From contig NZ_CP127247.1 of NCBI RefSeq assembly GCF_030285785.1, forward strand, positions 4,115,501 through 4,179,500: 64,000 nt of DNA. Direction: 5' to 3'. Source of the stretch: Parasedimentitalea psychrophila (GTDB lineage: Bacteria > Pseudomonadota > Alphaproteobacteria > Rhodobacterales > Rhodobacteraceae). The translations under genes and the position numbers were made by a program. Below are positions 16,025-63,462 of the stretch, piece after piece (the stretch's first letter is position 1; every line of letters begins with the position of its first letter). The notes under the pieces were generated by a model. That model had not been told where the DNA came from and made no database searches. It worked only from the letters and a program-made list of their open reading frames with translations.

Positions 16025-17221
16025 TCAACGGGTCGACGCAACACATGCATTGAAACGCTCGGCTGGTGTCTCATATCCTAGCGTTTTTCGAGGTCGTTCA
16101 TTGAGCTGTCTTGCGACCGCACTCAGCTTTGCTTGACTATGTATCGACAAATCTGTGCCCCTTGGGAAGTACTGTCGCAGAAAACGGTTGGTATTTTCGT
16201 TCGTGCCGCGTTGCCACGGTGATCGTGGATCACAGAAATAGACGTCGACATCAGTCGCCAAGGTAAACTTTTTGTGCCCCGCCATCTCGCTTCCACGATC
16301 CCATGTCAGTGAACGGTAGAGTTCTTTTGGTAGTTTGTGAGCTTGCTTGATCAGCGCCTGAACAACGCTGTGACTGTCTTTGTTGCCAACCTTGGCCAGC
16401 ATCACATAACGCGTGTGTCGCTCGACCAATGTGGCAATGAAGCTGTTGCCAGAACCGGCGATCAAATCGCCTTCCCAGTGTCCTGGAACGGCACGGTCTT
16501 CCACATGCGCCGGTCTTTGGCGGATCGATATAGTGTCCTTGATTTGGCCAAGGCCGCTGCGCTTCATGGTGGTGTGGCGAGAGCGACGAATGGATCGCGT
16601 CGCCCGCAAGTGCGACAGCAATTCTTTCTTAAGTACATTGCGTGTCTGGATAAATAGGCTTCGGTAGATCGTCTCGTGAGAGACCCGTTTGTCTTCCTCA
16701 TCGGGATGTGCGCGCATCAGCCAACCTGCGATTTGTTGCGGGGACCATTTGCGGGTCAGCTTGGCCGATATCGCCCCCTCTCATCGATACTTCGTATCGA
16801 CTGCCGGGCAGTGGACATAGATAGATATTGCCTGCCAGTTTGCAGGGCTTTGGCCGATGGGCACGAGCCCATGCCGCTGCATCTGATTGAGCCGCACGGT
16901 AAAGTTTGACGCCACCGTTGCGCCGGATTTCGCGGCTGATGGTCGACGCAGACCGTTTCAAGGATCTCGCAATTGATCGCACAGATAGTTGCGCAGTCAG
17001 GCCTCGTGATATCTCCTCGCGCTCAGCCAAACTCAGAGCCAAACGGGACCTCATGCGATCTGGCGGACGGATACCACCGGTGCGCGCCAGCAGAGGATAA
17101 ATCGATGATGATGCACGATCAAATCCACGTCCAATCGAACTCATCGACTCTCCGCGTTGCCAACGATCCCAGATCTCTGACTTCTGTTTATCTGTAAAAA
17201 ATGTCTGCGGCGATAGGCCAT
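16025..17221 (-). pseudogene. IS30 transposase, disrupted
   Basis: Translation gives the IS30 N-terminal helix-turn-helix region (TDKQKSEIWDRWQRGESMSS), a second HTH (SISTISREIRRNGG-like) and the catalytic core with EGDLIAGSGN, DRGSEM and NENTNR, where the DDE residues lie. Two lesions break it. One nucleotide is missing next to the ATG at 17221 compared with copy 2. A 38-nt hairpin at 16776-16813 also splits the frame before the WSPQQIAGW motif. It is therefore inactive without trans-complementation. Confidence 0.85.
16776..16813 (-). repeat. IS-associated hairpin insertion (copy in IS30-1)
   Basis: On the minus strand: left motif CACTGCCCGGCAG, stem TCGATAC / GTATCGA, loop GAA, right end TGAGAGGG. 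It is preceded by TGTC. 38 nt, so it shifts the reading frame of the transposase. Confidence 0.85.
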
Positions 17222-17291
17222 GATTTACTGAACCTCGTCCCTGTTCCCAGACACTGGGGTACTTTACCCCTGTCCATGAAAGGGGCACCAA

Positions 17292-17588
17292 ATGGGACGA
17301 CAGCGACGGAATTATACGGACGATTATAAGGCTGCGGCAGTTGAACGGCTTTACGAGCCAGGAGCGACGCAGGGTAGCGTGTCGAGCGAGCTTGGGATCA
17401 CCGGTACACAACTGAAGACGTGGAGGCTTGAGATTGAGGCGTTTGGTTCATCAGAAGCCAAGCGCCGTCAGAAGGCGGATGCCGCTGAACTGGTCCGCCT
17501 TCGCAAAGAGAACAGGCGTCTTGCTGAGGAAGTGGAGATTTTGCACAAGGCATCCGCTTTTTTCGCAACGAGGGCGGTGAAACCATGA
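17292..17588 (+). CDS. IS3 transposase OrfA
   Basis: 98 residues. An N-terminal helix-turn-helix (TQGSVSSELGITGTQLKTW) is followed by a leucine-zipper-like helix (VRLRKENRRLAEEVEILHKA), as in IS3 OrfA. It overlaps orfB by 4 nt (ATGA), and the OrfAB fusion transposase is normally made by a -1 frameshift in this zone. OrfA binds the terminal repeats. Confidence 0.9.
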   Translation: MGRQRRNYTDDYKAAAVERLYEPGATQGSVSSELGITGTQLKTWRLEIEAFGSSEAKRRQKADAAELVRLRKENRRLAEEVEILHKASAFFATRAVKP

Positions 17589-18484
17589 CGAACAAGCACA
17601 GCTTCGTCACTGCCCATAAAGCGCAATATGCGGTCTCCACATTATGCCGACACCTCAAGATATCTCGGGGTTGGTTCTATGGCTTTCTGACCAGTCAGGA
17701 CGCCCGAGATCAGCGGCGTACCATCCGTGAAGCGCGAGATCTGGAGTTGCTGCCAAAGATAAAGGCGTTTTTCAAAGCCAGCGGGAAATGCTATGGGTCC
17801 AAGCGTATTCATCAGGATCTAATGGCTGATGGTGAGATCGCTTCTGAGCGGCGTGTGGCGATAATAATGAAAGAAAACAAGGTGTCTCCGCTTCTGCGTA
17901 AGCGCCGAAAGCCCAAAACTACTGACAGCAATCACGACATGAAGCCTTCACCAAATCTATTGGAGCAGAAGTTCAACTGCCAGACGCCCAACGCCGTTTG
18001 GCTGGCGGATATTACCTATATCGACACGGATGAAGGGTGGCTTTACTTGGCTGGCATCAAAGACATGTCCACGCGGGAGATTGTTGGCTGGGCGATGGAG
18101 GACCATATGCGGGCAGAGCTCTGCTGTGAGGCCCTGAAGATGGCTCTGGCGCGACGAGGGCCCGTTTCCGGATTGATCCACCATTCCGACAGGGGGAGCC
18201 AGTATGCAGGTGGGAAATACCGCAAGCTAATTGGCAAGGCCTCCATCACCCAATCCATGAGCCGCAAAGGAGAATGCCTGGATAACGCGCCAATGGAGAG
18301 CTTTTTTGCTTCATTGAAAAAAGAACTCGTGCATCGCCATCGGTTCAGAACGCGCGCTCAAGCCAAAGCTGCAATCTTCGAATACATTGAGGTCTTCTAC
18401 AATCGCCAGCGCCGCCACTCCAGTATCGGCTACAAAACGCCCCTGCAGGCATTTGAAGATACAGCTTTGAAAATGGCCGCATAG
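17585..18484 (+). CDS. IS3 transposase OrfB (DDE integrase domain)
   Basis: 299 residues with the rve-type catalytic core. Catalytic acids lie in WLADITYIDT, in HHSDRGSQYA and in the glutamate of CLDNAPMESFFASLK; the terminal YNRQRRHSSIGYKTP motif is also present. All are intact and the length is normal, so this copy could be active and might act in trans on decayed copies. Confidence 0.9.
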   Translation: MTNKHSFVTAHKAQYAVSTLCRHLKISRGWFYGFLTSQDARDQRRTIREARDLELLPKIKAFFKASGKCYGSKRIHQDLMADGEIASERRVAIIMKENKVSPLLRKRRKPKTTDSNHDMKPSPNLLEQKFNCQTPNAVWLADITYIDTDEGWLYLAGIKDMSTREIVGWAMEDHMRAELCCEALKMALARRGPVSGLIHHSDRGSQYAGGKYRKLIGKASITQSMSRKGECLDNAPMESFFASLKKELVHRHRFRTRAQAKAAIFEYIEVFYNRQRRHSSIGYKTPLQAFEDTALKMAA

Positions 18485-18524
18485 GGTCAATAGTGAAACT
18501 GTCCGGTTTTAGGGACGAGGATCA

Positions 18525-20458: not shown

Positions 20459-20500
20459 CACTGCCCGGCAGGGTATTGCGCAGCAATGTCCCGAGAGGAG
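20459..20500 (+). repeat. IS-associated hairpin insertion (IS30-2, first)
   Basis: Preceded by CATG. Left motif CACTGCCCGGCAG, stem GGTATTGC / GCAATGTCC with G-T wobble, loop GCA, right end CGAGAGG. The same IS30 position is occupied in the fragment at 27861. Confidence 0.85.
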
Positions 20501-20697: not shown

Positions 20698-20740
20698 GGC
20701 CTCTCGGTGATGCAAGCATCACCTGTCAGCTAATAGGATG
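20698..20740 (-). repeat. IS-associated hairpin insertion (IS30-2, second; variant left half)
   Basis: On the minus strand: preceded by CATC, left motif CTATTAGCTGACAG, stem GTGATGC / GCATCAC, loop TT, right end CGAGAGG. The left half differs from the common CACTGCCCGGCAG and resembles the copy at 63425. Confidence 0.75.
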
Positions 20741-22524: not shown

Positions 22525-22813
22525 GTCTTGTGTGGATGGCTCCTGCATAGCAAGACATTTTTGCGGTGATCCGCGCATTTGTCAGAAGCAGTCTTGTGTC
22601 CGGCCTGTTTGCGCGGTTTTGACCGCTGGCCCTCCCTTTCGGGACATTGCTGCGCAATGCCCTGCCGGGCAGTGGATGGGTTCCGCGAACCAAGTCCCTT
22701 TCTGCTTTGCGGGCAATAACGCCCGGGACATTCGACGGGGTGTCTTGGTTGTTGCGGCTGACTTTTGCACCATCACTTCGCAGGTCTTGCTATCTCGTGT
22801 TGTTTAGGTCTTT
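22525..22813 (-). ncRNA. Candidate guide (bridge/seek) RNA region of IS1111 copy 1
   Basis: The 289 nt between the transposase stop and the element edge are non-coding. In IS1111-subgroup elements the guide RNA that directs recombination is encoded downstream of the transposase, so this is the expected place. A 41-nt hairpin element sits inside it. The diverged copy at 24072-24480 retains the same layout. Assignment is by position only; no RNA structure was computed. Confidence 0.4.
22634..22674 (-). repeat. IS-associated hairpin insertion (IS1111-1, non-coding end)
   Basis: Minus strand: preceded by CATC, CACTGCCCGGCAG, stem GGCATTGC / GCAATGTCC, loop GCA, right end CGAAAGGG (A for G in the usual GAGAGGG). 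41 nt. Confidence 0.85.
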
Positions 22814-23874
22814 TCAGATTGTTCTCGGCGTGTACGGCTCATTCTTTGTCAAAACTGCCCAGACGATCCGTGCCGTTTTATTCGCCATTGCCACAGTTGC
22901 TAAGCGTGCTGGTTTGCGTTCCAAAAGGGCTGTTAGCCATTTACTCGCCCTTTCCGGGTGGGATCGAGTCTGTCGCACAAGCGATGTCATTCCTACGACA
23001 AGGAGCTGGCGCAGATATTGATCACCCATCCGCTGCCCGGCAGGGCATCGCCATGCGATGTCCCGAGAGGGATGGTGATCCGGCCTAATCGCTCTTTCCC
23101 ACCACTCGATTTGTTGGCAGGCGTCAATCCTATCCACGCAGCAAACTCTCGACCATTCCTGAACTGATGGCCATCGCCAATGCTAGCAGCGATCGCAGAT
23201 GCCGTGACAGTGCCGACGCCAGGTATTGTTTGCAAGAGCCTCACGCGCGCGTCTCGCTTCGCCTCCAATCTCAGACGTGTCTCATACCATCTCACCTGCT
23301 CATGAAGGGCTCCAAGCCGCTGGCACAGATTGCGGAACACGTCCTGCGCAATAGTGGGAAGTTCCAGTTCAACGCCTTCGACCACACTTTGCGCAAAGCT
23401 GATCACCCGTGCGAGGCCACGGGCAATGTAGATACCAAACTCGGCCAACAGACTGCGAAGCGCATTGATCAATTGGGTGCGTTGTCGAACAATCAGACTT
23501 CGTGCCCGGTGCAAGGACAGAAGCGCTTGTTGGTCAACCGATTTGATTTCAACAAACCGCATCGTGGGCCGCGTGACTGCTTCGCAAATAGCCTCCGCAT
23601 CAATCGCGTCAGACTTGCCGCGCTTCACATAAGGTTTGACATACATCGGCGGGATAAGCCGTACTTCATGTCCCACCTGGCTCAGCTCGCGCGCCCAGTG
23701 ATGGCTGGTACCGCAGGCTTCAATCCCGACCAAACAAGGATCAAGGCGCTTAAAAAATGCCAGCACCTGCGCACGGCGCAACGGGCGATTGAATGCGACT
23801 TCACCTGCATCAGTGATACCGTGCACATGAAAGATGTTCTTGGCCAGGTCGAGGCCAACTGTTGTAACTTGCAT
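22814..23874 (-). pseudogene. IS1111-type transposase, split by a hairpin
   Basis: Starts ATG 23874 (MQVTTVGLDLAKNIFHVHG), with the DEDD-type first aspartate in GLDLAK, an E in GIEACGTSHHW and the KSDAIDAEAI motif. The C-terminal TIPGVGTVTASAIAASIG helix-hairpin region and GGKERLGRIT follow. At 23071-23031 a 41-nt hairpin breaks the frame; the downstream part resumes as MGDQYLRQLLVVGMTSLVRQ and runs to the stop at 22814. Removing the hairpin restores RIT-MMGDQYLR in one frame. It lacks any other obvious lesion. Confidence 0.88.
23031..23071 (+). repeat. IS-associated hairpin insertion (IS1111-1, in transposase)
   Basis: Preceded by CATC and followed by ATGG. Left CGCTGCCCGGCAG, stem GGCATCGC / GCGATGTCC, loop CAT, right end CGAGAGGG. 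41 nt. Its sequence differs at seven positions from the hairpin at the same place in IS1111 copy 2. Confidence 0.9.
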
Positions 23875-24071: not shown

Positions 24072-24480
24072 GTCCTCTGTGGATGGCTCCTGCATTGCAA
24101 GCGTTTTTCGGCGATTTCGCAGCGTTTTGTCAGTACAGTCGTCTGTCCGGCCTGTTTGTGCGCCACTTTCAAAATACTGCTGGCCTTCCCTTTCGGGACA
24201 TTGCTGCGCAATGCTCCGCCGGGCAGTGGATGGTTTCCGCAAGCGAGGATCCAAACGGCTTAACGACCTCAAAGGGCCGGTGACCTTCCCGGAGTGTCCT
24301 GGCTCTTGGTTGACTTGTGCCGCGTCATCACCTCATTCGTCTTGCATCTCGTGGCCGCCATGTCGCCTATGCGACTGGCTGCCTGTATTGCTGTCCTTTC
24401 GATAAAACTGCCCAGATCACTCGCGCTGACTTGTTGGCCATAGCAATCGTCGCAAGCCGGAACGGCTTTTGAGCGAGGAT
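24072..24480 (-). mobile_element. Diverged partial IS1111 element (3' end only)
   Basis: Aligns by eye with the left 400 bp of IS1111 copy 1: the CTGTGGATGGCTCCTGCAT edge, a GTCCGGCCTGTTTG block, the hairpin, and the AAAACTGCCCAGATC block encoding the transposase C-terminus. It is clearly diverged. The rest is missing; an IS3 end abuts it at 24483. Confidence 0.7.
24188..24228 (-). repeat. IS-associated hairpin insertion (partial IS1111)
   Basis: Minus strand: preceded by CATC, CACTGCCCGGCGG, stem AGCATTGC / GCAATGTCC, loop GCA, right end CGAAAGGG. It is at the position homologous to 22634 despite divergence of the host element and shares the GAAAGGG variant. Confidence 0.82.
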
Positions 24481-24482
24481 CA

Positions 24483-27860: not shown

Positions 27861-27900
27861 CTCCTCTCGGGACATTGCTGCGCAAAACCCTACCGTGTAG
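27861..27900 (-). repeat. IS-associated hairpin at an IS30 / FG-GAP breakpoint
   Basis: Minus strand: left CTACACGGTAG (diverged), stem GGTTTTGC / GCAATGTCC with a mismatch, loop GCA, right end CGAGAGG. To its left the DNA is no longer IS30 but an FG-GAP gene fragment, so the element sits exactly at a truncation point. Confidence 0.7.
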
Positions 27901-28024
27901 CCAATGCTGGCGACATCAACGGGGATGGATACGACGACTTGTTGATCGGAGCGCGGGAGGCTGACCCGAACGGAAATGAACAAGCTGGAGAGGTCTATGT
28001 TATCTATGGGCAAGACACATTCTC
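27900..28024 (+). pseudogene. FG-GAP (integrin-alpha-like) repeat fragment
   Basis: About 41 codons reading ANAGDINGDGYDDLLIGARE followed by ADPNGNEQAGEVYVIYGQD, a clear FG-GAP repeat with the calcium-binding DINGDGYDD loop. It is trapped between the hairpin/IS30 breakpoint and the end of IS3 copy 2 at 28025, and is a remnant of an exported adhesin-like protein. Confidence 0.8.
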
Positions 28025-28293: not shown

Positions 28294-28330
28294 CAGTGCC
28301 TGGCAGTGCATGTTCACATGCACGAGAGGG
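28294..28330 (+). repeat. IS-associated hairpin insertion (IS3-2, third)
   Basis: Preceded by CATG, followed by GATT. CAGTGCCTGGCAG, stem TGCATG / CATGCA (extended by G-C), loop TTCA, right end CGAGAGGG. Exactly 37 nt relative to the empty site in copy 1 (complement near 18258). Confidence 0.9.
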
Positions 28331-28398
28331 GATTGGGTGATGGAGGCCTTGCCAATCAGCTTGCGGTATTTCCCACCTGCATACTGGCTCCCCCTGTC

Positions 28399-28438
28399 CA
28401 CTGCCCGGCAGTGTATTGCGCAGCAATGCACGAGAGGG
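28399..28438 (+). repeat. IS-associated hairpin at a deletion junction (IS3-2, second)
   Basis: Preceded by TGTC. CACTGCCCGGCAG, stem TGTATTGC / GCAATGCA, loop GCA, right end CGAGAGGG. 40 nt. The flanks correspond to positions about 18189 and 18030 of copy 1, so about 155 bp are missing here. Confidence 0.88.
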
Positions 28439-28880
28439 AGTGTCGATATAGGTAATATCCGCCAGCCAAACGGTGTTGGGCGTCTGGCAGTTGAACTTCT
28501 GCTCCAGTAGATTTGGTGAAGGCTTCATGTCGTGTTTGCTGTCAGTAGTTTTGGGCTTTCGGCGCTTACGCAGAAGCGGAGACTCCTTGTTTTCTTTCAT
28601 TATTATCGCCACACGCCGCTCAGAAGCGATCTCACCATCAGCCATTAGATCCTGATGAATGCGCTTGGACCCATAGCATTTCCCGCTGGCTTTGAAAAAC
28701 GCCTTTATCTTTGGCAGCAACTCCAGATCCCGCGCTTCACGGATGACAAGCCGCTGATCGCGGGTGTCCTGACTGGTCAGAAAGCCATAGAACCAACCCC
28801 GAGATATCTTGAGGTGTCGGCATAATGTGGAAACCGCATATTGCGCTTTGTGGGCCGTGACGGAACTGTGCTTGTTCGTC

Positions 28881-28921
28881 CGCTGCCCGGCAGGGCATTG
28901 CAAGGCGATGTCCCGAGAGGG
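28881..28921 (+). repeat. IS-associated hairpin insertion (IS3-2, orfA/orfB junction)
   Basis: Preceded by CGTC, followed by ATGG. CGCTGCCCGGCAG, stem GGCATTGC / GCGATGTCC, loop AAG, right end CGAGAGGG. Exactly 41 nt inserted into the sequence TTCGTC|ATGG, which is uninterrupted in copy 1 (complement of 17580-17590); no target duplication. Confidence 0.92.
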
Positions 28922-31817: not shown

Positions 31818-32069
31818 GGCGTGTCCTCCCCGAACACAGCTTCGTCAAAGCATAGGCGACAGCCGCACAAAATGCAGCCCCCGCAGGGCCATTGGCCCGC
31901 ATGCCATATCGTTCCACGCTGGAAAGGCCTGTGCATCGGCCTATATCAACCGATATCCAACGCGCGTGAGGTAAACTCCTGGCCCTGAAAGGCCGGTCGC
32001 GCGAAGGACCGAGGGGTGCGGGTGCGCCCGCTTGCCCTGGGGCGGTTTCGTCAGCTGGGGAGGAAAGCT

Positions 32070-35000
32070 ATGGCGATGTTTCGCGTGGAGGCGGAAAGCC
32101 TCAACATCATTGACGGCTTCAAAGTGGAGACCCTGGCCGCGGCTTCAGGCGGTCAAACCTTGAAAGCCGAGAGCAAGGCGCCGGAGTCGCGGGCGCAGTT
32201 CACCTTTACCGGCGAAGACGGGATCTATGACCTCGACATCGGCCATTTCGACGAGAACGACGGCTCGGCCACGCTAACAGTTCTGGTGAACGGAATAGAG
32301 GTTGGCAGCTTTGTGCTGGATCAGGAACTTGGCAGCCACCTCGCCAACCAGCAGACGCATACCGTCCGCCGCATCGAAAACGTGGCGTTGCAAGACGGCG
32401 ATACCTTCGAGATATTGGGAATGCGCGACGGCGGAGAGCCGGTGCGCATGGATTACATCGACTTCACGCTGACCGGACCGGGAACGGATGTCATCGAGGT
32501 GGATACGCCGCTCGACGTGACCGATGCCTCAGACGGCCTGACCTCGCTGCGTGAAGCCATCGCTATGGCAAACGCGGATCCCGACGCCAATACGATTACC
32601 TTCAACACCGACGTTTTCAACGATGAGCCGCAGGATGTCATCAGGCTGACTCAAGGTGCGCTCCTTATCACCTCCGACCTTACAATCGATGGCGATCTGA
32701 ACGATGACGGGCAGCCCGATATTATCGTCTCGGGCGACGTCCTTGGCGACGATGTGACCACCACTGACCCGTTCGGAAAGACGATTACGAACGCGCCCGC
32801 AAACCCATTTGATTCCGACAACAGCTATAGCGTCTTCTCCTTCCGCGACTCATCCGAGGCCACTTTGGACGGTCTGGTTGTCACCGGTGCGGGCAGTCCC
32901 GGCGATGAAGGCTCAGCGATTGTCGTCGGCTATGGGGCCAATCTCACCGTTCGCAATTCGAGCCTGTCCGGAAACACGAGCAATACTTGGGGCGCCGCCC
33001 TCTACAATAGCGGGACAACGATACTCGAAGACACGGCCGTCGCCTTCAACGTAGCCGGCGCGATGTTCAACGAGGGTCTGCTCACCCTCTCGACTGTCAC
33101 TGCGACCGACAACTCATCTCAGGCACTGTTTAATTATGGCTCCCTCGAGATTTTCGACTCGCGGTTCGCGGGAAACACAAGTGGCCTGACTAACTTTAAC
33201 GGCGGCACCGCCACGATCCAGTCGTCCGATTTCACGAACCATATCCGGGGCGCGATCTATAACGACGGGACGCTGAACATGACCGGCGGCAGCATCTTGA
33301 ACAATACCAATACTGCTTCGGGCGCGGGCCTCAGAAACAACGGAGGCACAGCAACCTTGGACGGCGTCGTGATCTCGGGCAACGTTGCGCCTGGCGGCGG
33401 CGGGATCTGGAATGAAGGCACACTGACGCTCACCAACGCGTTGATGTCGGAAAACCGGGCGTCGGGCGAGGACGGCGGCGCGGTCCTGAATGACGGCACC
33501 CTCATTCTGTCCAATTCCATGCTGACCGAGAATTCGGCGTCCGAATCCGGTGGTGGCATCGCCAATCGCGGGATGCTCACGCTCAGCGACAGCACGATCA
33601 CCGGGAGTTTGGCGGAGGGCGGCGCAGCCATTACCAACGACCCGGGCGCAACGGCGGACATCACCAATGTCACCATCGCCGGCAACTATGTCGCCGTGAA
33701 TAGCGGCGCAGTCTCAAATAGCGGCGACATGACGATCCTGAACAGCACGGTGACCGGCAACACCAGCGTCGCGGATTACAATGCAGGCGTCTTTAACATC
33801 GGAACGCTTCAAATCGGCAATTCGATTGTGCTCGGCAACACCCCGGGCGAAACCTACGGCGTGATGACCGAGACCGGCCCGAATATCATCGGCGGCCTTG
33901 ATCCGGCAGATGTCTTTGTGGCCATTGATCCGGTGACGGGCGGCGGCCTTCTTGCGGACAATGGTGGCCCGACCGAAACCGTTGCCATCTTGGCCGGTGG
34001 GCCGGCCGCAGGCGCAGCCAATCCCGCCACCGCCACGCCCGCGGACCAGCGCGGCGTTCCGCGCGACGTCGCGCCAGACCTCGGCGCCTTTGAGGCGCAG
34101 CAGGGTCCTCCGCCGGAACCCTTCCGGATCGAGGCGGAGGACCTCACCCGCGACGTTGCGTTCAAGGTCAAGAACCTCGCCTCGGCCTCGGCCAACCAAG
34201 TCTTGCAGGCTGACGGGAGCGCAGAGCAACGTGCGTCCTACGTCTTTGACCGCCCGGCCGGCACCTACAGCCTCACCATCGGCTATTTCGACGAGAACGA
34301 TGGTGTCTCCAGCTTTGCCGTCTTCGTCGATGGCGTCGAAATCGGCAACTGGTTGTGGGATGAGGAGCTTGGCAGCGCATTCGCCGACAATATGACCGCC
34401 ACAACCCACACGATCCAAGGTGTAAACATCAGTCAAGGCGAGGTGATCGAATTCGTTGGGATGAAGGATGCTGGCGAACCGCTGCGCTTTGACTATGTCG
34501 ATTTTGCCCCCACCGGTCAGGTCACGGATACGACGCCGCCGCAGGTCGACACCGCTTCCGCACCCGGCATTGGCAATGCGCAGCAAGGGGATGCCACCAC
34601 ACAGGTGACGGTAACCTATTCGGATAACGTCGCGCTGGATGTCTCGTCATTCGACACGGAAGATATCAGAGTGACGGGACCTGGCGGCATTGACGTGGAC
34701 GTCACAGGCTTCTCCGTCGATACACCGTCGGACGGAACTCCGCGCACCGTCACCTACACGATCGCGGCCCCGGGCGGCACCTGGGATCCCGCTGACAATG
34801 GCATCTATTCGGTTTCGCTCGACGTCCTAGAGGTTTTCGATACCGCATTCAACGAAGCGGAGGGTATCGTCGACTTGGCCGCGTTCACCGTCGCCATCGA
34901 TGACCAGCCGCCGCCCGCGTCCTTCCGGAAGGAGGCAGAGGATTTCGATATCCTGACCAGCTACACAGCCAAGTCGCTCTCGGCGGCGTCGGGAGACGCA

Positions 35001-37118
35001 GTGCTCCAGGCCGTTGGTAGCGGCGAAAAGCGGGCGAGCTTCGCCTTCGACCAACCGACCGGCAACTACGATCTCAAGATCGGCTATTTCGACGAAAACG
35101 ACGGTGAGGCGAGCTTCCGACTGCTGGTTGATGGCGTCGAGATCGACAGCTTTGTGTGGAACCAAGATCTCGGCAGTCCGCTTGCCAATGCGACAACGGC
35201 CACCACCCGTGACCTCCTCGGCATCTCGCTTCAGAACGGCTCCGTTATCGAAGTGATCGGTCAAAAGGACGGGAGCGAGCCAGCCCGATTCGACTATGTC
35301 GACTTCATCGGCCTGCCGGTGGGAACGCCGGACAACAACGTCGTCGTGGGCACGCCCGAGGTCGAAAACATCAATGCAGGCATCGGCAACGACACTCTTT
35401 CAGGCGGTTCAGGGAACGACATTCTTGCAGGCGGCCCCGGCAACGACATTCTGGTTGGAGGTCCCTCAAACCCAACACTCGGGCTGAACTTTACAGGCAC
35501 GCTAACGTCACAGCTTCCATTTCGTCCTCCAGACACCATGGGTGCGGTCGGGAATGACCATATCGTCGAAATGCTCAACGGACGTTTCGCGGTCTATGAT
35601 CAAACTTCTGGAAATATTATTCAGGCTCAGTCGACAGATCAATTTTGGCGAGACGCCGGAGTAACCCTTTTAGATTCTGCCGTGGATCCGCGCATCTTGT
35701 ATGATCCCATTGCGGAACGATGGATTGCTACTGCTTTCCAAAGAACGACAAATTTATATCTGCTCGCAGCGTCGCTTTCCGCAGATCCCACTGACGGCTG
35801 GGCAGGATTCTCGCTAGCTTCCGCAGAATACGCTGGTATAGATTTACCGACCTTAGGGTTCAATGCGGACATTGTCGTCGTCAATACTTCAAATGAGATG
35901 CTGACCATTCCAAAAGAAGATCTCTATAATGGAAATTTTGAAAGTGCGCAATTTTTGCTCGCAGAACCCGATCCAGGTCGCGGTAAATACCAGCCGATCG
36001 TCGACCTGGACAATAGTGGAATGCCTTTTCCGATATTCTCATTCAACTGGATTGCGGGAAATTCGGTACAGGTAGCCACGGTGAATGGAACTGCAACTTC
36101 CCCTTCAATAAATGTCCAAGTACCTGATAGCGTCATTTTTGATCAAATCTATGGTCCTCCGCCAAATGCGCAACAGCCTGGAACGAATGTACACCTGGAG
36201 ACAATTGACAATCGTTTTTTGACGAACCTGATTTTACAGGAAGGGTCCGTCTGGGGAGTGCATCACGTTGAGGAAAACGGTCGCGCAGCGTTGCATTGGT
36301 TTCAGATCGACGCAGAAACAAATACATTGCTTAATGATGGTTTAATCCCTGACGCCGAGTTGGATCTTTATTTCGGCTCAATTGCTGTCAACGACTATGG
36401 GAATGTCGTAATTGGTTATAATGGCTCCAGCGGAAGTCAATTCGTAAGCAGTTATGCTGTTACGGCGAAGTTGGCGCAAGATGGGTCCATAACTTTCGAT
36501 GAACCCGTGCTTCTGAAGGCTGGTGTTGCTCCCTACGTAGGCGCTGGTGGCTTCGATCCGGATACGACGCGGTGGGGTGACTACAGTGCCACGGTGTTGG
36601 ATCCAGACGATCCATACACGTTCTGGACGTTCCAGGAGGTCGTTGTGTCCGAGAATGTGGGCGCCACCCAAATCACCGAGATTGACCTCCTAGGCCGTGG
36701 AGTTCCCGACAACGACCAGCTGTCGGGCGGTCCGGGCAACGATACCCTGAGCGGCGGCAACGGCCTCGACGTCTTTTTATTCAACACCACCGACATCAGT
36801 TCTGCCAATGCAGAGCCTGACTTGGATCAGATCCTCGACTTCCAGATCTCCGCTGATCGGATCGAATTTATCGACGACGCGAACGTCGGTTTGAGTGGCG
36901 CCGTCGCTGCGGGCAACCAGACCGAATTCCTCGACCTCGGGGACAGCTTCGGGCCCCTTGGAAACCCAGGGGACATCTTTCTGACGATGGACGGGGCCGA
37001 CACTCAGATCGTTGCCGATTATGATAACTCGGGCAGCCTATCGAGCCTGGACCAAGTTGTCATTGTTGACGACGTTGACCCGCTCAAGCTTTTGGCTGAC
37101 ATTTTCGTTTTCGTGTGA
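32070..37118 (+). CDS. Large mosaic RTX exported protein (CBM-like modules, beta-helix, split RTX block)
   Basis: 1682 residues from ATG 32070, chosen for GGGGAGG 6 nt upstream. Order: CBM-like module 1 (about 1-145); SLREAI motif and a pectate-lyase/polymorphic-outer-membrane-type beta-helix (about 170-670); CBM-like module 2 (683-815); Ig-like domain (815-945); CBM-like module 3 (949-1080); RTX repeats (GGSGNDILAGGPGNDILVGG, about 1110-1133); a lower-GC domain (about 1134-1543); more RTX repeats (SGGPGNDTLSGGNG); and a C-terminal region ending in hydrophobic residues. There is no N-terminal signal peptide, so type I secretion is likely. It probably acts as a surface or polysaccharide-binding adhesin; no catalytic residue set was identified. 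Confidence 0.85.
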   Translation: MAMFRVEAESLNIIDGFKVETLAAASGGQTLKAESKAPESRAQFTFTGEDGIYDLDIGHFDENDGSATLTVLVNGIEVGSFVLDQELGSHLANQQTHTVRRIENVALQDGDTFEILGMRDGGEPVRMDYIDFTLTGPGTDVIEVDTPLDVTDASDGLTSLREAIAMANADPDANTITFNTDVFNDEPQDVIRLTQGALLITSDLTIDGDLNDDGQPDIIVSGDVLGDDVTTTDPFGKTITNAPANPFDSDNSYSVFSFRDSSEATLDGLVVTGAGSPGDEGSAIVVGYGANLTVRNSSLSGNTSNTWGAALYNSGTTILEDTAVAFNVAGAMFNEGLLTLSTVTATDNSSQALFNYGSLEIFDSRFAGNTSGLTNFNGGTATIQSSDFTNHIRGAIYNDGTLNMTGGSILNNTNTASGAGLRNNGGTATLDGVVISGNVAPGGGGIWNEGTLTLTNALMSENRASGEDGGAVLNDGTLILSNSMLTENSASESGGGIANRGMLTLSDSTITGSLAEGGAAITNDPGATADITNVTIAGNYVAVNSGAVSNSGDMTILNSTVTGNTSVADYNAGVFNIGTLQIGNSIVLGNTPGETYGVMTETGPNIIGGLDPADVFVAIDPVTGGGLLADNGGPTETVAILAGGPAAGAANPATATPADQRGVPRDVAPDLGAFEAQQGPPPEPFRIEAEDLTRDVAFKVKNLASASANQVLQADGSAEQRASYVFDRPAGTYSLTIGYFDENDGVSSFAVFVDGVEIGNWLWDEELGSAFADNMTATTHTIQGVNISQGEVIEFVGMKDAGEPLRFDYVDFAPTGQVTDTTPPQVDTASAPGIGNAQQGDATTQVTVTYSDNVALDVSSFDTEDIRVTGPGGIDVDVTGFSVDTPSDGTPRTVTYTIAAPGGTWDPADNGIYSVSLDVLEVFDTAFNEAEGIVDLAAFTVAIDDQPPPASFRKEAEDFDILTSYTAKSLSAASGDAVLQAVGSGEKRASFAFDQPTGNYDLKIGYFDENDGEASFRLLVDGVEIDSFVWNQDLGSPLANATTATTRDLLGISLQNGSVIEVIGQKDGSEPARFDYVDFIGLPVGTPDNNVVVGTPEVENINAGIGNDTLSGGSGNDILAGGPGNDILVGGPSNPTLGLNFTGTLTSQLPFRPPDTMGAVGNDHIVEMLNGRFAVYDQTSGNIIQAQSTDQFWRDAGVTLLDSAVDPRILYDPIAERWIATAFQRTTNLYLLAASLSADPTDGWAGFSLASAEYAGIDLPTLGFNADIVVVNTSNEMLTIPKEDLYNGNFESAQFLLAEPDPGRGKYQPIVDLDNSGMPFPIFSFNWIAGNSVQVATVNGTATSPSINVQVPDSVIFDQIYGPPPNAQQPGTNVHLETIDNRFLTNLILQEGSVWGVHHVEENGRAALHWFQIDAETNTLLNDGLIPDAELDLYFGSIAVNDYGNVVIGYNGSSGSQFVSSYAVTAKLAQDGSITFDEPVLLKAGVAPYVGAGGFDPDTTRWGDYSATVLDPDDPYTFWTFQEVVVSENVGATQITEIDLLGRGVPDNDQLSGGPGNDTLSGGNGLDVFLFNTTDISSANAEPDLDQILDFQISADRIEFIDDANVGLSGAVAAGNQTEFLDLGDSFGPLGNPGDIFLTMDGADTQIVADYDNSGSLSSLDQVVIVDDVDPLKLLADIFVFV

Positions 37119-38022: not shown

Positions 38023-38062
38023 CGTTGCCCGGCAGTCGAATTCGCAGAATTCGATGAGAGGG
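38023..38062 (+). repeat. IS-associated hairpin insertion (IS3b, first)
   Basis: Preceded by TGTC. CGTTGCCCGGCAG, stem TCGAATTC / GAATTCGA, loop GCA, right end TGAGAGGG. 40 nt. Confidence 0.85.
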
Positions 38063-38086
38063 GGCCACCGACCTTTCCCGTCCATG

Positions 38087-38125
38087 CACTGCCCGGCAGC
38101 GCATGTTTACATGCGCGAGAGAGGG
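38087..38125 (+). repeat. IS-associated hairpin insertion (IS3b, second)
   Basis: Preceded by CATG, followed by GATA. CACTGCCCGGCAG, stem CGCATG / CATGCG (extended by G-C), loop TTTA, right end CGAGAGAGGG with one extra GA. 39 nt, the only length divisible by three, but it carries a TAA stop in the transposase frame. Confidence 0.85.
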
Positions 38126-43794: not shown

Positions 43795-43807
43795 CGACGT
43801 TCTTAGG

Positions 43808-46021: not shown

Positions 46022-46849
46022 TCATGCGGCCATTTTCAGTTTCATGGCAGGTGCGATCCCGCCGATGCCCATGTTGGGTCGGTCGTTGTTGTAAGTCCAG
46101 AGCCATTCTGTGGCCTGCTCCTGTGCCTCCTCAATGGTTTCAAATATGTATTGCCCCAGCCATTCTCCGCGAACCGTGCGATTGTAGCGCTCGATATAGG
46201 CATTCTGTTGCGGCTTTCCGGGCTGGATATATTCAAGCCGGATGCCCTGTTTCTCAGCCCACGCCATCAGCTTTCCACTGACATATTCGGGGCCATTATC
46301 GACTCGAATGATCTTGGGTTTGCCACGCCATTCAATGATATGGTCCAAACTTCGGACAACCCGATCTGCGGGTAGCGAGAAGTCAACTTCGATGCCCAAG
46401 CCCTCGCGATTGAAATCATCCAGCACGTTCAACGTCCTAATCGACCGCCCGTCAGCCAACTGGTCCGCCATAAAATCCATCGACCAGGTGTCATTTGGCA
46501 TGTCTGGCACTGCCAGTGGTTCCGGTTTGTCCCTCTTCAGGCGCTTCTTGGGCTTGATCCGCAGGTTCAACTCCAACTCGCAGTAGATCCGGTAAACCCG
46601 TTTGTGGTTCCAGCCATAGCCTTTGACGTTACGCAGATAGAGAAAACATAATCCGAAACCCCAGGTTCGACGGTTGCTCGTCAACCTCACCAACCAGTCA
46701 GCAATTTCCGCATTTTCATCGCTCAGCTTGCGCTCGTAACGATAATAGGTCTCGCTGATGAAAAATGTCCGGCAGGCCAGCGCGATGCTGACCCTGTGGT
46801 GTGCGACCGCATGAACAGCCATCCACTGACCGGCAGGTGAATGGCACAT
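46022..46849 (-). pseudogene. IS3 OrfB, N-terminus altered by a hairpin
   Basis: The DDE core is complete ([34 protein letters not shown] and the glutamate in [16 protein letters not shown]), ending [12 protein letters not shown]. The beginning reads through the hairpin at 46824-46860, so the normal frameshift fusion with OrfA is broken. OrfB alone may still be translated from an internal start. Confidence 0.8.
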
Positions 46850-46860
46850 TCACCGAGAGG
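46824..46860 (+). repeat. IS-associated hairpin insertion (IS3c)
   Basis: Preceded by CATC. CACTGACCGGCAG, stem GTGAATG / CATTCAC (extended by G-C), loop GCA, right end CGAGAGG. 37 nt, at the orfA/orfB junction like the hairpin at 28881 in an unrelated IS3 element. Confidence 0.85.
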
Positions 46861-46880
46861 CTCCTTGCGCAGGGATGGCC

Positions 46881-48264: not shown

Positions 48265-48553
48265 GTCTTGTGTGGATGGCTCCTGCATAGCAAGACATTT
48301 TTGCGGTGATCCGCGCATTTGTCAGAAGCAGTCTTGTGTCCGGCCTGTTTGCGCGGTTTTGACCGCTGGCCCTCCCTTTCGGGACATTGCTGCGCAATGC
48401 CCTGCCGGGCAGTGGATGGGTTCCGCGAACCAAGTCCCTTTCTGCTTTGCGGGCAATAATGCCCGGGACATTCGACGGGGTGTCTTGGTTGTTGCGGCTG
48501 ACTTTTGCACCATCACTTCGCAGGTCTTGCTATCTCGTGTTGTTTAGGTGTTT
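48265..48553 (-). ncRNA. Candidate guide (bridge/seek) RNA region of IS1111 copy 2
   Basis: Position-based call as for copy 1, between the transposase stop and the element edge. It has two substitutions relative to copy 1 and the identical inserted hairpin. Confidence 0.4.
48374..48414 (-). repeat. IS-associated hairpin insertion (IS1111-2, non-coding end)
   Basis: Identical to the hairpin at 22634: preceded by CATC, loop GCA, right end CGAAAGGG. Confidence 0.85.
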
Positions 48554-49614
48554 TCAGATTGTTCTCGGCGTGTACGGCTCATTCTTTGTCAAAACTGCCC
48601 AGACGATCCGTGCCGTTTTATTCGCCATTGCCACAGTTGCTAAGCGTGCTGGTTTGCGTTCCAAAAGGGCTGTTAGCCATTTGCTCGCCCTTTCCGGGTG
48701 GGATCGAGTCTGTCGCACAAGCGATGTCATTCCTACGACAAGGAGCTGGCGCAAATATTGATCACCCATCCCTTGCCCGGCAGGGCATTGCGCAGCAATG
48801 TCCCGAGAGGGATGGTGATCCGGCCTAATCGCTCTTTCCCACCACTCGATTTGTTGGCAGGCGTCAATCCTATCCACGCAGCAAACTCTCGACCATTCCT
48901 GAACTGATGGCCATCGCCAATGCTAGCAGCGATCGCAGATGCCGTGACAGTGCCGACGCCAGGTATTGTTTGCAAGAGCCTCACGCGCGCGTCTCGCTTC
49001 GCCTCCAATCTCAGACGTGTCTCATACCATCTCACCTGCTCATGAAGGGCTCCAAGCCGCTGGCACAGATTGCGGAACACGTCCTGCGCAATAGTGGGAA
49101 GTTCCAGTTCAACGCCTTCGACCACACTTTGCGCAAAGCTGATCACCCGTGCGAGGCCACGGGCAATGTAGATACCAAACTCGGCCAACAGACTGCGAAG
49201 CGCATTGATCAATTGGGTGCGTTGTCGAACAATCAGACTTCGTGCCCGGTGCAAGGACAGAAGCGCTTGTTGGTCAACCGATTTGATTTCAACAAACCGC
49301 ATCGTAGGCCGCGTGACTGCTTCGCAAATAGCCTCCGCATCAATCGCGTCAGACTTGCCGCGCTTCACATAAGGTTTGACATACATCGGCGGGATAAGCC
49401 GTACTTCATGTCCCACCTGGCTCAGCTCGCGCGCCCAGTGATGGCTGGTACCGCAGGCTTCAATCCCGACCAAACAAGGATCAAGGCGCTTAAAAAATGC
49501 CAGCACCTGCGCACGGCGCAACGGGCGATTGAATGCGACTTCACCTGCAACAGTGATACCGTGCACATGAAAGATGTTCTTGGCCAGGTCGAGGCCAACT
49601 GTTGTAACTTGCAT
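48554..49614 (-). pseudogene. IS1111-type transposase, split by a hairpin
   Basis: Same protein as 22814-23874, from ATG 49614, interrupted at the same nucleotide by a hairpin of different sequence (48771-48811). One coding difference is HGITVAGEV versus HGITDAGEV. No other inactivating change was seen. Confidence 0.88.
48771..48811 (+). repeat. IS-associated hairpin insertion (IS1111-2, in transposase)
   Basis: Preceded by CATC, followed by ATGG. CCTTGCCCGGCAG, stem GGCATTGC / GCAATGTCC, loop GCA, right end CGAGAGGG. 41 nt. Seven of 41 positions differ from its counterpart at 23031. Confidence 0.9.
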
Positions 49615-52376: not shown

Positions 52377-52758
52377 GTGAGGATTTTGACCGTGGATTTG
52401 TATTTGAAGGTGCGGCTCGCTCATTTTCAGGATGGTTTGAGCGGGCCGCAGATTGCCCGCGATTTCGGGATCAGCCAAGATAGTGTATCGAAGATGTTGG
52501 TGTATTCGGAACCGCCTGGTTATCGGCGAACAGCGGTGGTCAAGCGTCCGAAGTTGGATGCGTATGCGGATCAAATTGACCAGTGGCTGGCTGAAGACAA
52601 AGGACGCCCTCGCAAGCAACGCCACCCTGCAAAACGCATTTTTGAGCGGCTCGGTGCTGAATGTGGGTTCGGCGGCTGTTACACCATCGTCAAAGATTAT
52701 GTGCGGACCAAGAAGCGCGGTTCTCTTGAGATGTTTGTGCCGCTGAGCCATCCGACCC

Positions 52759-52796
52759 GCTGCCCTCTCACACATGCATAGCATGTGTGAGAGGGA
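52759..52796. repeat. IS-associated hairpin, symmetric variant (IS21 istA)
   Basis: Preceded by GACC. After CGCTG the element is a 15-bp perfect inverted repeat, CCCTCTCACACATGC and its complement, around ATA, ending GAGAGGG. The left half is thus a mirror of the right end rather than the usual CCGGCAG. Confidence 0.75.
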
Positions 52797-53019
52797 GGCA
52801 TGCGCAAGCTGACTTTGGCGAAGCTCTGGTTGTCATCGGCGGTGTTGAACAAAAGGCATATTTCTTTGCACTGGATTTGCCGCACAGCGATGCGTGTTAT
52901 GTCCGGGCGTATCCTGCGGCGAACACCGAGGCTTGGCTGGATGGTCATGTGCATGCGTTTGCGTTTTTTGGCGCGGTGCCGCGGCAATGATTATTCCGTT
53001 CCTGTTGCCTACGGCCACC

Positions 53020-53056
53020 CATTGCCAGGCAGGGCATGTTTACATGCCCGAGAGGG
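53020..53056 (+). repeat. IS-associated hairpin insertion (IS21 istA)
   Basis: Preceded by CACC, followed by GCGA. CATTGCCAGGCAG, stem GGCATG / CATGCC, loop TTTA, right end CGAGAGGG. 37 nt; removal restores AYGH-RDVW in frame. Confidence 0.88.
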
Positions 53057-53543
53057 GCGACGTGTGGATCAAAGGCTTCGTTGATCGTGTCGTTATCGGC
53101 TGCGCCGCTGAGGTGATCGCAGATCGCCCCAGATCCTATGCCACAGGTGATATGGTGTTTAACCCGATACACTATCTGCGGCTGATTGAGCGCAAGATCA
53201 TGTCCTTTGATCAGGCCGCCCCGCTGCAAAACTGGGATTTGCCAGAGGCCTTCGCAACACTTCAGCGGCTGCTTGAAGCCCGACAAGGCAAAGCTGGAAA
53301 GCGTGAGTACGTACAGGTTCTGCGCCTGCTGGAGCGCTTTGAGTTGGAGGTGCTGCACTGTGCCATCAGGGACGCCTTGCAGAAGGGAGCGATCAGTTTC
53401 GATGCAGTCAAACATCTGGTGCTGTGTCGGGTGGAACGGCGCGCGCCCCGGCTGGATCTGGACCTCTACCCGTTCCTGCCCAGAACCAACATCGCCACAA
53501 CCTCTGCCACAACTTACATGAGCTTGCTGGCAAGCGATGCGCC

Positions 53544-54308
53544 ATGACAAATGCACCCGAATTGCTGCTCGCCCATCACCTCAAAACACTCAGATTGCCA
53601 ACTTTCCTACGCGAACATGACAAGCAAGCTCGCATCTGTGCCGCTGAAGGCGTGGATCATGTCCGCTACCTGGCGCGCCTGACAGAGTTGGAGCTGATCG
53701 ACCGTGAACGGCGCATGGTTGAACGCAGGATCAAGTTGGCAAAATTCCCGGCGGTCAAAAGCCTGGACAGCTTTGACTTCAAGGCGATCCCGAGCCTGAA
53801 CAAGATGATGGTGCTGGAATTGGCGCGCTGTGAGTGGATCGAACGCCAAGAGAATGTCATTGCCCTCGGCCCATCAGGCACCGGCAAAACCCATGTCGCC
53901 CTCGGTCTGGGGTTGGCGGCCTGCCAAAAGGGGATGCCGGTCAGCATCGTTACCGCGGCATCTTTGGTTCACGAGTTGATGGAAGCCCGCGATGAGAAGC
54001 GGCTGCTGCGATTGCAACGGCAACTGGCCAAGGTCAAACTGCTGATCATTGATGAGTTGGGCTTCGTGCCGCTAAGCAAGACCGGGGCTGAACTGCTATT
54101 CGAGCTGATCTCGCAGCGCTACGAGTGCGGCTCAACCCTCATCACCGGCAATCTGCCGTTCGAGGAATAGAGGGAAACATTCGGCTCTGAGCGCCTGACT
54201 GGAGCGCTGCTGGACCGGCTGACCCACCACGTCAACATCCTTGAGATGAACGGTAAAAGCTACCGACTGAACCAAAGCCGATCACGGCTCGCCAGAGCCA
54301 ACAAGTAA
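53544..54308 (+). pseudogene. istB: IS21 helper ATPase IstB with nonsense mutation
   Basis: ATG 53544 overlaps the istA stop (ATGA). AAA+ motifs are intact: Walker A ALGPSGTGKTH and Walker B LLIIDELGFVPL. At 54168 a TAG replaces the usual tryptophan codon of LPFEEW; the remaining frame (FGSERLTGALLDRLTHHVNI, ending ARANK) continues to 54308. The truncated product lacks the C-terminal helix region. Confidence 0.88.
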
Positions 54309-61964: not shown

Positions 61965-62599
61965 TCCCAGACCCTCTCAATGGCACTCATCAACCGAATT
62001 TTGTTCTCGAAGGTCTGTCTTTGCCTCCTAAAACCCATTGGGAAACACCGGAGTTTTTTCTGTGTGCTTGAAGCGGCTATCCCAAACCAAGAATGGTGCG
62101 CTGCCTGATGTCCAAAGATGTGCCACTGTTAATAGATCCTCATGGTTTTACGGAAAATTTCTCCTTGAGACGCTTGGGTGCGGGTCGCAATCCAAGCGGT
62201 GTCAAATCGCCTCCTAGAAAATTATCTAGCGAAAAATATCTAACTGTAGGTTACGAGGTGTGACTTATTTGGCTTTGTAGAACCAAAAACGGCGCAACGT
62301 TTCTCATCGCTTGCAATGAAAATGACGTCGTCTATCGGCTTTTGAGCCGCCGTTAGCTGGATACTCGCCATGGTCAGCTGTGGGTCGGACTTGTCACTTC
62401 TGACTGAATGGCGACCGGCGGGGATGTCCGCACAGCAGCCGTTTGTTCAGCGCGCAGTGGATGACTGGAAACCGCCCTTCTAGTCGATATGTGCATGGTG
62501 CAGCAATTGGACCACATCATGCGCCCATTAATGAGCGAACGACCCTCAGCGGACCTTCGAACGAATCGCAGCTAACGGCAGATCGGAGCCCAATACGGA
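61965..62599. other. Gene-free stretch with repeat pieces
   Basis: No gene. Pieces such as GAGCCGCCGTTAGC (62345), GCAGTGGATGACTGGAAACC (62453) and CGCAGCTAACGGCAGATCGG (62566) belong to the same repeat style as copies A and B. Confidence 0.45.
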
Positions 62600-63103
62600 C
62601 TAACCTTTTGGGTGTCGGTAGACTAAATCTGTGGGGTCTTGGCGCGGTGCTTCTGTATCCAACTCAGCGCCTAGCCTTTCGGCAAGCGAGCGGGATCGAG
62701 TATTGGGTGGATCGACATAACTGACCAATGTATCGAGTTTCCTTTCACGAAATGCCCAGTGCCTTAATGCAAGTGCAGCCTCATAGGCATATCCCTTGCC
62801 TTCTGCATGAGGATAGACAAACCAGCCCAATTCATGTTCTGGAAAAAGCGGACCGTAGTTGATGCCTACCTGCCCCAAACACAAGCCAGACTGACATTCT
62901 TCGATCATCAGCGCGCCATGTCCCATCAGAGTCCATTGTGCGACGTCGTGACAAAACAGACCCCATGCAGCATCAAGCGAAAAAGGGCCACCCATATATA
63001 CAGAGCGCTCCGACATCATCAGCACAGAGTATTCAGACCAGTCCTCTGTCCTCGGTACGCGCAAAATCAGGCGCTCTGTTTCCAAGATAGGAATGGCAGA
63101 CAT
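62600..63103 (-). CDS. GNAT-family N-acetyltransferase (RimJ/RimL type)
   Basis: 167 residues. Starts SAIPILETERLILRVPRTED, the usual opening of RimJ/RimL-like enzymes; VGINYGPLFPEHELGWFVYP and AEGKGYAYEAALALRHWAF carry the acetyl-CoA loop, and VSYVDPPNTRSRSLAERLGA the terminal helix. Start ATG 63103. It may acetylate a protein N-terminus or small amine. Confidence 0.9.
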   Translation of the reverse strand: MSAIPILETERLILRVPRTEDWSEYSVLMMSERSVYMGGPFSLDAAWGLFCHDVAQWTLMGHGALMIEECQSGLCLGQVGINYGPLFPEHELGWFVYPHAEGKGYAYEAALALRHWAFRERKLDTLVSYVDPPNTRSRSLAERLGAELDTEAPRQDPTDLVYRHPKG

Positions 63104-63424
63104 AGGTAATGGACCCTCAGACGAAATCTCACGAACTCTGCGGAAAACCTAAACATTTTTTGCAATTGAGCAACCGCAGCAAGGTCCAGCTTAGCAGGCA
63201 TTGGCGCGGCGCGCGACGAATGTCGCGCTTCTCTAATTGGGTGTTTGGGTCAAGCTCATTTTCCTTCTTTCTTCTGAGTCCTTGTCTCTCATCCGGGTCA
63301 CGCTTCTCTTCGCAGTCTGTTTTGGCGCTCTGATGGCACCGCTGCACGCATATGTAGGATCGGCAGTGAAGAGCCCCGCTCTCCGGCGCGCTTCAAGTTG
63401 CGCAGCAGACATTTTCGGCTTCAT
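63104..63424. other. Gene-free stretch
   Basis: No convincing gene between the GNAT gene and the IS110 remnant. A short plus-strand frame with hydrophobic residues (RVTLLFAVCFGALMAPLHAY, near 63300-63355) is possible but runs into the IS end. Confidence 0.35.
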
Positions 63425-63462
63425 CTATTACCAGACAGGGCATGTTTCCATGCCCGAGAGGG
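63425..63462 (+). repeat. IS-associated hairpin insertion (IS110 3' end; variant left half)
   Basis: Preceded by TCAT. CTATTACCAGACAG, stem GGCATG / CATGCC, loop TTTC, right end CGAGAGGG. It lies about 60 nt beyond the transposase stop and shares the CTATTA...GACAG left half with 20698-20740. Confidence 0.8.

Follow-up and report, generated by a model that had tools for sequence, protein, structure and literature searches.

A family of short hairpin elements found mainly within insertion sequences of Parasedimentitalea psychrophila and other Rhodobacterales

Hairpin elements in the window

The 64,000-nt stretch of the Parasedimentitalea psychrophila genome analyzed here (NZ_CP127247.1, positions 4,115,501 to 4,179,500; hereafter the window) contains 18 copies of a short hairpin element that lie in or beside insertion sequences (ISs) and IS remnants. 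An earlier note, made from the sequence of the window alone, described them as one family with a left motif, a stem of variable sequence, a short loop and the right end GAGAGGG. We inspected all 18 locations directly and built a covariance model from 15 aligned copies, with the stem entered as pairs. The model recovered 16 of the 18 copies at E ≤ 7.3e-6 (the next-best match in the window had an E value of 0.015), and the other two are one decayed and one rearranged copy; both the number of copies and the layout were borne out, with a length of 37-41 nt. No match to Rfam was found in the window. The copies are listed below with window coordinates and, where given, E values of the model.

16775..16813, minus strand: hairpin element in an IS30 transposase gene (E 1.9e-8; flanks IS30)
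20459..20499, plus strand: hairpin element in an IS30 transposase gene (E 6.9e-9)
20698..20735, minus strand: diverged hairpin element in the same IS30 as 20459 (E 7.3e-6)
22634..22674, minus strand: hairpin element beside an IS1111/IS110 transposase (E 2.4e-10; the genome contains five copies that share these flanks)
23031..23071, plus strand: hairpin element near the 3' end of an IS1111/IS110 transposase (E 2e-8)
24188..24228, minus strand: hairpin element in an IS1111/IS110 remnant (E 1.3e-8)
27861..27902, minus strand: apparently decayed copy of the 20459 type in an IS30 remnant (E 0.62)
28294..28331, plus strand: hairpin element in an IS3 transposase (E 5e-9; the homologue at C1:4133756 is empty)
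28399..28439, plus strand: hairpin element in the same IS3 transposase as 28294 (E 7e-10)
28881..28921, plus strand: hairpin element in the same IS3 transposase as 28294 (E 8.8e-8; empty homologue at C1:453115)
38023..38063, plus strand: hairpin element in an IS3 remnant (E 7.3e-9)
38087..38124, plus strand: second hairpin element in the same IS3 remnant as 38023 (E 2.6e-9)
46824..46861, plus strand: hairpin element in an IS3 transposase (E 8.4e-8; the homologue at C1:3832742 is empty)
48374..48414, minus strand: hairpin element in a second copy of the IS1111/IS110 seen at 22634 (E 2.4e-10)
48771..48811, plus strand: hairpin element in a second copy of the IS1111/IS110 seen at 23031 (E 4.4e-9)
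52757..52795, plus strand: derivative copy beside IS21, its internal loop now part of a perfect 15-bp hairpin (from sequence and folding)
53020..53057, plus strand: hairpin element upstream of istB and, by frame reading only, within istA of an IS21 remnant (E 4.3e-10)
63426..63463, plus strand: hairpin element in an IS110/IS1111 remnant (E 1e-7; PF02371 in 63421-63981)

The copy at 27861 reads as a decayed version of the IS30 insertion at 20459, because its right half is intact and its right flank is nearly that of 20459. The copy at 52759, which the model matched at positions 14-38 only (E 2.2 and 2.7), is a rearranged derivative of the element: it retains CGCTGCCC, and the complement of TGAGA stands in place of GGCAG, which results in the perfect hairpin. 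The segment from 52757 to 52795 folds at -18 kcal/mol as DNA and looks like the product of hairpin-templated repair. Three elements are stacked in a single IS3 copy (28294-28921), and the elements at 23031 and 48771, which occupy sister copies of one IS1111/IS110, have stems that differ by compensating changes. Downstream of the 53020 copy, IstB (PF01695) was detected at 53424-54170; Pfam did not recognize the frame read as istA (52894-53547).

Structure of the element

The element is a single imperfect hairpin of 37-41 nt that begins with 5'-CAYTG and consists of an outer CCC/GGG helix, a GGCA/GAGA internal loop and an inner hairpin. The six inner pairs form in 92-99% of 84 different 41-nt elements, with CG, GC and TA exchanging for one another (columns 16-30, for example, are CG in 35, GC in 25 and TA in 16). 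Because the elements pooled for pairing and site-reuse counts had passed a filter of at least five paired bases, these percentages lean upwards; the exchange of pair types is independent of the filter. The outer helix, which was absent from the earlier description, joins columns 6-8 (CCC) to the last three bases (GGG) and covaries in rare forms (CCT with AGG, GCT with AGC). The outer pair of column 8 is Watson-Crick in 102 of 118 elements, where shuffles reached at most 98, and that of column 6 in 96 of 118 (P 0.001); among 32 column pairs scanned, only these two stood out. Pairing of both helices is thus kept by compensating changes.

Stem sequences group into types that recur at many sites. 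Stem changes that remain paired may arise by hairpin-templated repair, as the copy at 52759 suggests. The 13-mer CACTGCCCGGCAG also occurs without the element at C1:197132 and 2741691, which lie in nearly identical and hence multicopy sequence, and apparently also at 2688542.

Copy number in the genome

The genome that carries the window measures 5.0 Mb and is estimated to be 99.99% complete. We identified at least 161 copies of the element in it, of which 148 are model matches at E ≤ 1 and 13 came from a looser pattern. This count is a lower bound, because 150 candidates were scored in the genome-wide model search and the extra copies were taken from the first places of the pattern list. An exact pattern gave 49 matches on both strands together and none when read backwards. 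The looser pattern gave 134 matches, and its reversed form still gave 18; we therefore kept only matches that bore a hairpin, chosen by eye.

Insertion sites

The elements are true insertions. Comparing flanks among the parts of the genome with copies, we found empty versions of many filled sites in the same genome, with the two flanks 100% and 99% identical (filled 445750 versus empty 451038), 100% and 99% (2204366 versus 2865662), 98% and 97% (3793587 versus 453784), 94% and 97.5% (3024085 versus 453115) or 92.5% and 97% (4162324 versus 3832742). At four of the five cleanest sites, the insertion adds precisely C...GAGAGG with no more than one further base, 37-41 nt in all; at 2204366 the element begins with T, and two target bases were lost or changed. 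At many sites, joining the flanks restores an uninterrupted transposase frame. No target duplication was seen at the clean empty sites, and the duplication that would mark a miniature inverted-repeat transposable element (MITE) of the DDE type is accordingly lacking there.

The four bases directly 5' of the insertion approximate C-R-T-C (among 83 dereplicated sites, CATC at 17, CGTC at 9, CATG at 7 and TGTC at 7). A tetranucleotide of this type is already present at the clean empty sites and therefore belongs to the target, outside the element. Insertion occurs without target duplication, directly 3' of a pre-existing C-R-T-C or a close variant (CATG), and in either orientation: 49 of the 83 dereplicated sites could be oriented, of which 22 are sense and 27 antisense to the transposase gene. 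The base that follows GAGAGGG is G at 69% of 174 sites and may in part belong to the element. Junctions showed no excess of target hairpins.

Insertions recur at the same positions. Among 322 events at 174 sites, 56 sites have more than one member, and 42 of these hold different stems on the same nucleotide, some of them little different and some differing in length; some loci are represented twice among the events, and the 42 sites include at least one (L196/L207) that is not an element. We counted 25 coincident pairs on the same nucleotide, versus 11.0 expected from a simulation with the short target motif (P 0.015), and the reuse of sites by different stems is mostly what such a motif would give, one IS5-type site apart. 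The IS5-type site CTGATC^GG is filled by three stem types across four genomes and is empty in otherwise near-identical copies in this genome, which indicates that sites are hit repeatedly. The newest insertion at one IS5-type site hit copies that had already been broken by another element. The same site is also filled in different genomes, in some cases by the same or nearly the same stem.

Association with insertion sequences

To score the association with ISs, we used a fixed test in which a copy passes if transposase homology, self excluded, lies within 250 nt. Transposase references were grown by chained BLAST from open reading frames (ORFs) of this genome and from fetched ORFs, and the same set served for the random control; a few references are wrong-frame or derive from the window or from loci L307 and L308 themselves. 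Matches to a locus's own ORFs were excluded for most references. Of the 161 genome copies, 154 passed, or 153 without the copy at 4168520 (53020 of the window), which passes only by a reference taken from the window itself. When counted as distinct sites, 101/108 have transposase flanks, compared with 77 of 2000 random positions (3.85%). An evenly spaced 400-kb sample of the genome contained 2.9% IS-like DNA and 9.1% noncoding DNA outside ISs, so neutral landing places outside ISs are about three times as common as those within them.

The claim that every copy in the window lies in an IS held for 16 of the 18 sites, whose flanks are homologous to transposases by references outside the window's own sequence. 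The remaining two, 52759 and 53020, adjoin the istB gene, and the placement of 53020 in istA rests on our reading of the frame. Seven genome copies failed the test. One of these (3480563) sits in a DDE_Tnp_1 match and another (20455) matches three other ORFs of the genome. The other five were assigned to no transposase: 1575030 and 1575154 are downstream of fliP, 1935653 is near a sulfotransferase gene, and the last two are at 2096215 and 3035963.

The same association was seen elsewhere. In four other high-copy genomes (40 stretches), 69/70 copies lie in ISs by the test, in this count without exclusion of a locus's own ORFs, and the last is in a frame that we read as istA. Among the matches listed for contigs of other organisms (120 stretches), 117 passed a loose hairpin filter, of which 100 are flanked by transposases, 9 were taken to be chance matches that lack a proper element, and 8 fell into neither class. 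Tracing three of these 8 led to one intergenic copy and two genomes with repeat-borne copies; the other five are L203, L208, L229, L256 and L279. The gap at L181 lies between an SDR gene and a Peptidase_S58 gene, and the arginase match most likely belongs to L285. Plasmid records matched two element queries in 91 and 9 cases, and all 12 plasmid copies that we opened read as transposase genes (10 by a database match, that of L297 being weak, L307 by annotation and L306 by reading).

The target ISs belong to IS3, IS21, IS30, IS66, IS91, IS110/IS1111, IS256 and DDE_Tnp_1 (IS5-like) by Pfam or NCBIfam, and to IS6, IS481 and IS630 by sequence reading. Identical element-bearing ISs occur in several copies, and insertions can be dense, reaching several per kilobase, as in the single IS remnant at C1:359117-359985, which has four elements. 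These data support the earlier note's proposal that the element is non-autonomous and accumulates in transposase genes, and they extend it to IS families beyond the four named there. The note's remark that no copy was seen in non-IS genes or intergenic DNA holds nearly but not fully across the family, where the intergenic copy and the repeat-borne copies in two genomes depart from it.

In each of these two genomes we read four copies (of 4 and 5 matches) that are near ordinary genes and inside larger dispersed repeats. One has a repeat of about 100 bp with the ends GCAAAACC...GGCTTTGC and the element as its core, present in four copies (L364, L371, L378 and L384), which looks like a MITE. The other, the L200 genome of Pseudaestuariivita atlantica, has a dispersed repeat, about 150 bp long or longer, that carries a 42-45 nt form of the element (L362, L368, L377 and L382). 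A further element, at L219:2733-2774, has a TraG/VirD4-like conjugation gene on one side.

Distribution across genomes

With at most 16 candidates scored per genome, the model found the element in 125/395 genomes of this genome's bacterial family, and 115 of the 125 positive genomes have 1-9 matches each. In another search set, 21 of 61 genomes were positive. The hairpin family is present in many marine relatives of Roseobacter, and the named contigs with the pattern are mostly from Rhodobacteraceae or other Rhodobacterales. Strong forms outside Rhodobacterales were found on Vreelandella and Labrenzia contigs. One contig of Vreelandella neptunia, a gammaproteobacterium, has ISs that carry hairpin elements (L174 and L216), which suggests transfer from Rhodobacterales or contamination. 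In IMG/VR, the pattern occurs in 8 stretches, 5 of them with strong model scores; phage records gave no match with one element as the query. We searched the literature, with subscription papers mostly outside the search, and found no paper recognizable as describing this hairpin family.

Beyond its ISs, the window encodes a 1700-amino acid protein with RTX calcium-binding repeats (32016-37118) and a 1553-amino acid protein (39325-43986) with Ser/Thr kinase matches near the N-terminus and a weak match to PQQ-type repeats, all of these below curated cut-offs.

Search for a mobilizing enzyme

The earlier note had suggested looking for a partner of the RAYT (REP-associated tyrosine transposase, where REP stands for repetitive extragenic palindrome) or IS200/IS605 Y1 type. 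Such a partner was not supported: PF01797 had no match at E ≤ 0.001 in the genome, and none of the Y1 loci examined is flanked by matching elements. Y1 transposases are present in 11 of 37 genomes searched, this genome being one of the 37, and their presence does not track element copy number. Two Y1 loci close to elements were considered as partners and rejected (L388 and L389); by frame reading, one consists of fragments beside an IS630-like remnant and the other is a Y1 gene that the element has entered.

Y2 (IS91) transposases were found in 7 of the 37 genomes and in 5 of 23 from the same family, including the four with the most elements, this genome among them; IS load is a sufficient reason for this co-occurrence. 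The genome has three intact IS91-type copies (C1:2247332, 2827196 and 2835575). We rejected Y2 as the mobilizer, as the approximate ends of these copies are unlike the element and their flanks are without CRTC. No larger element with the same ends was seen in the loci scanned.

HUH Y1 systems follow a rule by which a guide sequence in the element pairs with the target. The conserved GCAG at the foot of the stem complements CGTC base for base in parallel order, which would fit such a rule. A covariation scan gave no guide-like pattern (the strongest of 78 pairs tested was left -2 with column 8, z 5.0).

Discussion

We favor an explanation, on which we are evenly divided between belief and doubt, in which the element is a REP-like, non-autonomous hairpin with single-strand mobility of the HUH type that now multiplies mainly as a passenger of ISs. 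The mode of insertion, without duplication, 3' of a short target and as a folded hairpin, appears to be that of HUH single-strand transposition. The element would move as folded single-stranded DNA by HUH-type cut-and-join, as in IS200/IS605 and TnpA-REP, and the responsible enzyme would be one that we did not find in this genome. In most genomes today it would hardly jump by itself and would instead multiply through the copying of the IS or other repeat in which it once landed. Because the host transposase gene is broken, this copying would often take place in trans, and element-bearing ISs would also be passed between relatives. Copies in non-mobile DNA would be neither amplified nor spread and would therefore stay rare. 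Such passenger spread explains the low copy numbers, the sites common to several genomes and the repeat-borne exceptions.

Several observations weigh against this explanation. Large-scale random jumping would leave many single-copy intergenic insertions in some high-copy genome, and the copies read in five such genomes (161 here, 70 elsewhere) do not give this picture; among intergenic copies, only L374, which lies between an SDR gene and a Peptidase_S58 gene, was clearly unique. The one IS5-type site is reused in excess (13 pairs versus 1.4 expected), and there is a weak antisense bias in a wider set of sites (42/67 versus 32.4 expected from motif content, P 0.013). The insertion polymorphisms at 445750 and 2204366 are both very young, so the element may not be idle in this genome. 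Finally, no mobilizing enzyme was identified in the Y1 search of the genome or among the Y1 and Y2 families that we looked at.

It is possible, if somewhat doubtful, that the element instead inserts by active preference into IS DNA, for instance into a single-stranded or circular IS intermediate or by way of an enzyme recruited by the transposase. Such a preference would explain the lack of scattered copies in high-copy genomes, and it fits the proportion of distinct sites in ISs (101/108, against 3.85% of random positions), the 69/70 copies in four further genomes, the 12/12 opened plasmid copies that read as transposase genes and the crowding of several elements per kilobase in single IS remnants (four at C1:359117-359985), all in a genome with only 2.9% of sampled DNA in ISs and 9.1% in non-IS noncoding DNA. 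However, the targets span about ten IS families of different chemistry (DDE, DEDD and HUH), their junctions share a short C-R-T-C-type motif only and no hairpin, and copies are known in non-IS repeats. A machinery that acts on ISs as a class across transposase chemistries, probably via a DNA intermediate shared in IS movement, would make the element a dedicated transposon parasite or silencer, which we consider unlikely. Confinement to ISs, although very strong, is not absolute and does not require targeting, since much of it follows from riding on ISs.

The insertions that we examined break transposase frames or sit in remnants, that is, in dispensable DNA, as would be the case if the element landed everywhere and selection removed the harmful insertions outside ISs while ISs tolerated theirs. 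We regard this as improbable, because non-IS noncoding DNA (9.1%, versus 2.9% for ISs) offers plentiful neutral landing places that are almost empty of the element, and known REPs, as far as the portions of Di Nocera 2013 used here describe them, live in noncoding DNA (PMC3733652). The disruption of transposase frames in both orientations could also be the work of a host defense in which inserted hairpins inactivate transposases, an idea that the earlier note had considered. We found no positive evidence for this very improbable idea: the youngest insertion, at the IS5-type site, is in copies already broken by another element, element-bearing ISs are present in several copies and must have multiplied after they were hit, and no associated gene was found in a search limited to the Y1 and Y2 families. 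We give almost no credence to a built-in part of the transposase gene that serves in splicing, ribosome bypass or regulation. At a shared site in related ISs, compensating changes preserve the hairpin, as they would such a part, but homologues with empty sites and intact frames exist, both orientations occur and positions are scattered along the gene. The empty sites rule out that the motif is an ancestral part of these transposases, which would have overturned the earlier description, and the mixed orientation rules out ribosome bypass and splicing.

The means by which small palindromic repeats move have long been debated, particularly for the CGTC type of Alphaproteobacteria, which is without a known transposase. 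The near-identical filled and empty sites found here within a single genome define the ends of the element, assign CRTC to the target and supply young events for study. The element breaks transposase genes across a bacterial family, and residence almost entirely within other transposons would make it an unusual layer of parasitism; the hairpin family looks like a parasite riding on parasites.

Members of the IS200/IS605 family (HUH Y1) insert without duplication 3' of a fixed tetranucleotide and have subterminal hairpins. The element likewise causes no target duplication and enters 3' of a fixed short target; it differs in having one hairpin only and neither tnpA nor tnpB, and no longer relative with these ends was seen in the loci scanned. 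Rickettsia palindromic elements are small palindromes inside reading frames that keep the frame, whereas the element is 37-41 nt long, breaks frames and occurs in both orientations. ISs reportedly jump into REPs, a close physical link between palindromes and ISs, whereas here the hairpin jumps into ISs.

As described in the part of the source used here, GTAG-tagged REPs are hairpins of 20-50 nt, some with stem mismatches, beside a conserved tetranucleotide, and HUH single-strand chemistry by TnpA-REP (RAYT) has been proposed for their spread (PMC8266576). The same part gives insertion without duplication 3' of a tetranucleotide and subterminal hairpins for IS200/IS605 (PMC8266576). The element shares with GTAG REPs the small hairpin, in some copies with stem mismatches, that adjoins a conserved tetranucleotide. 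It has no GTAG at the foot of the hairpin, where GGCAG precedes the variable stem, and its ends are CACTGCCCGGCAG and GAGAGGG; further, REPs are mostly extragenic, whereas 101/108 sites here are flanked by transposases, and this genome has no match to RAYT (PF01797). CGTC-tagged REPs, according to the portions consulted of Di Nocera 2013 (PMC3733652), are mostly alphaproteobacterial, have CGTC or often TGTC on one side and no known dedicated transposase, carry this tag next to a stem of 8-9 bp whose first bases are nearly always AT, end in a CCA-like tail and are predominantly found between genes. The element resembles them in its CGTC-like tetranucleotide on one side. In contrast, CRTC is here part of the target and present at empty sites, it is separated from the variable stem by 13 mostly conserved nt, the right end is GAGAGGG and copies lie in ISs. 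Taken together, these comparisons suggest that the element behaves as a REP or a minimal IS200/IS605 derivative would, yet it lacks features that define GTAG REPs and the four CGTC families published so far, and its residence in ISs sets it apart from them.

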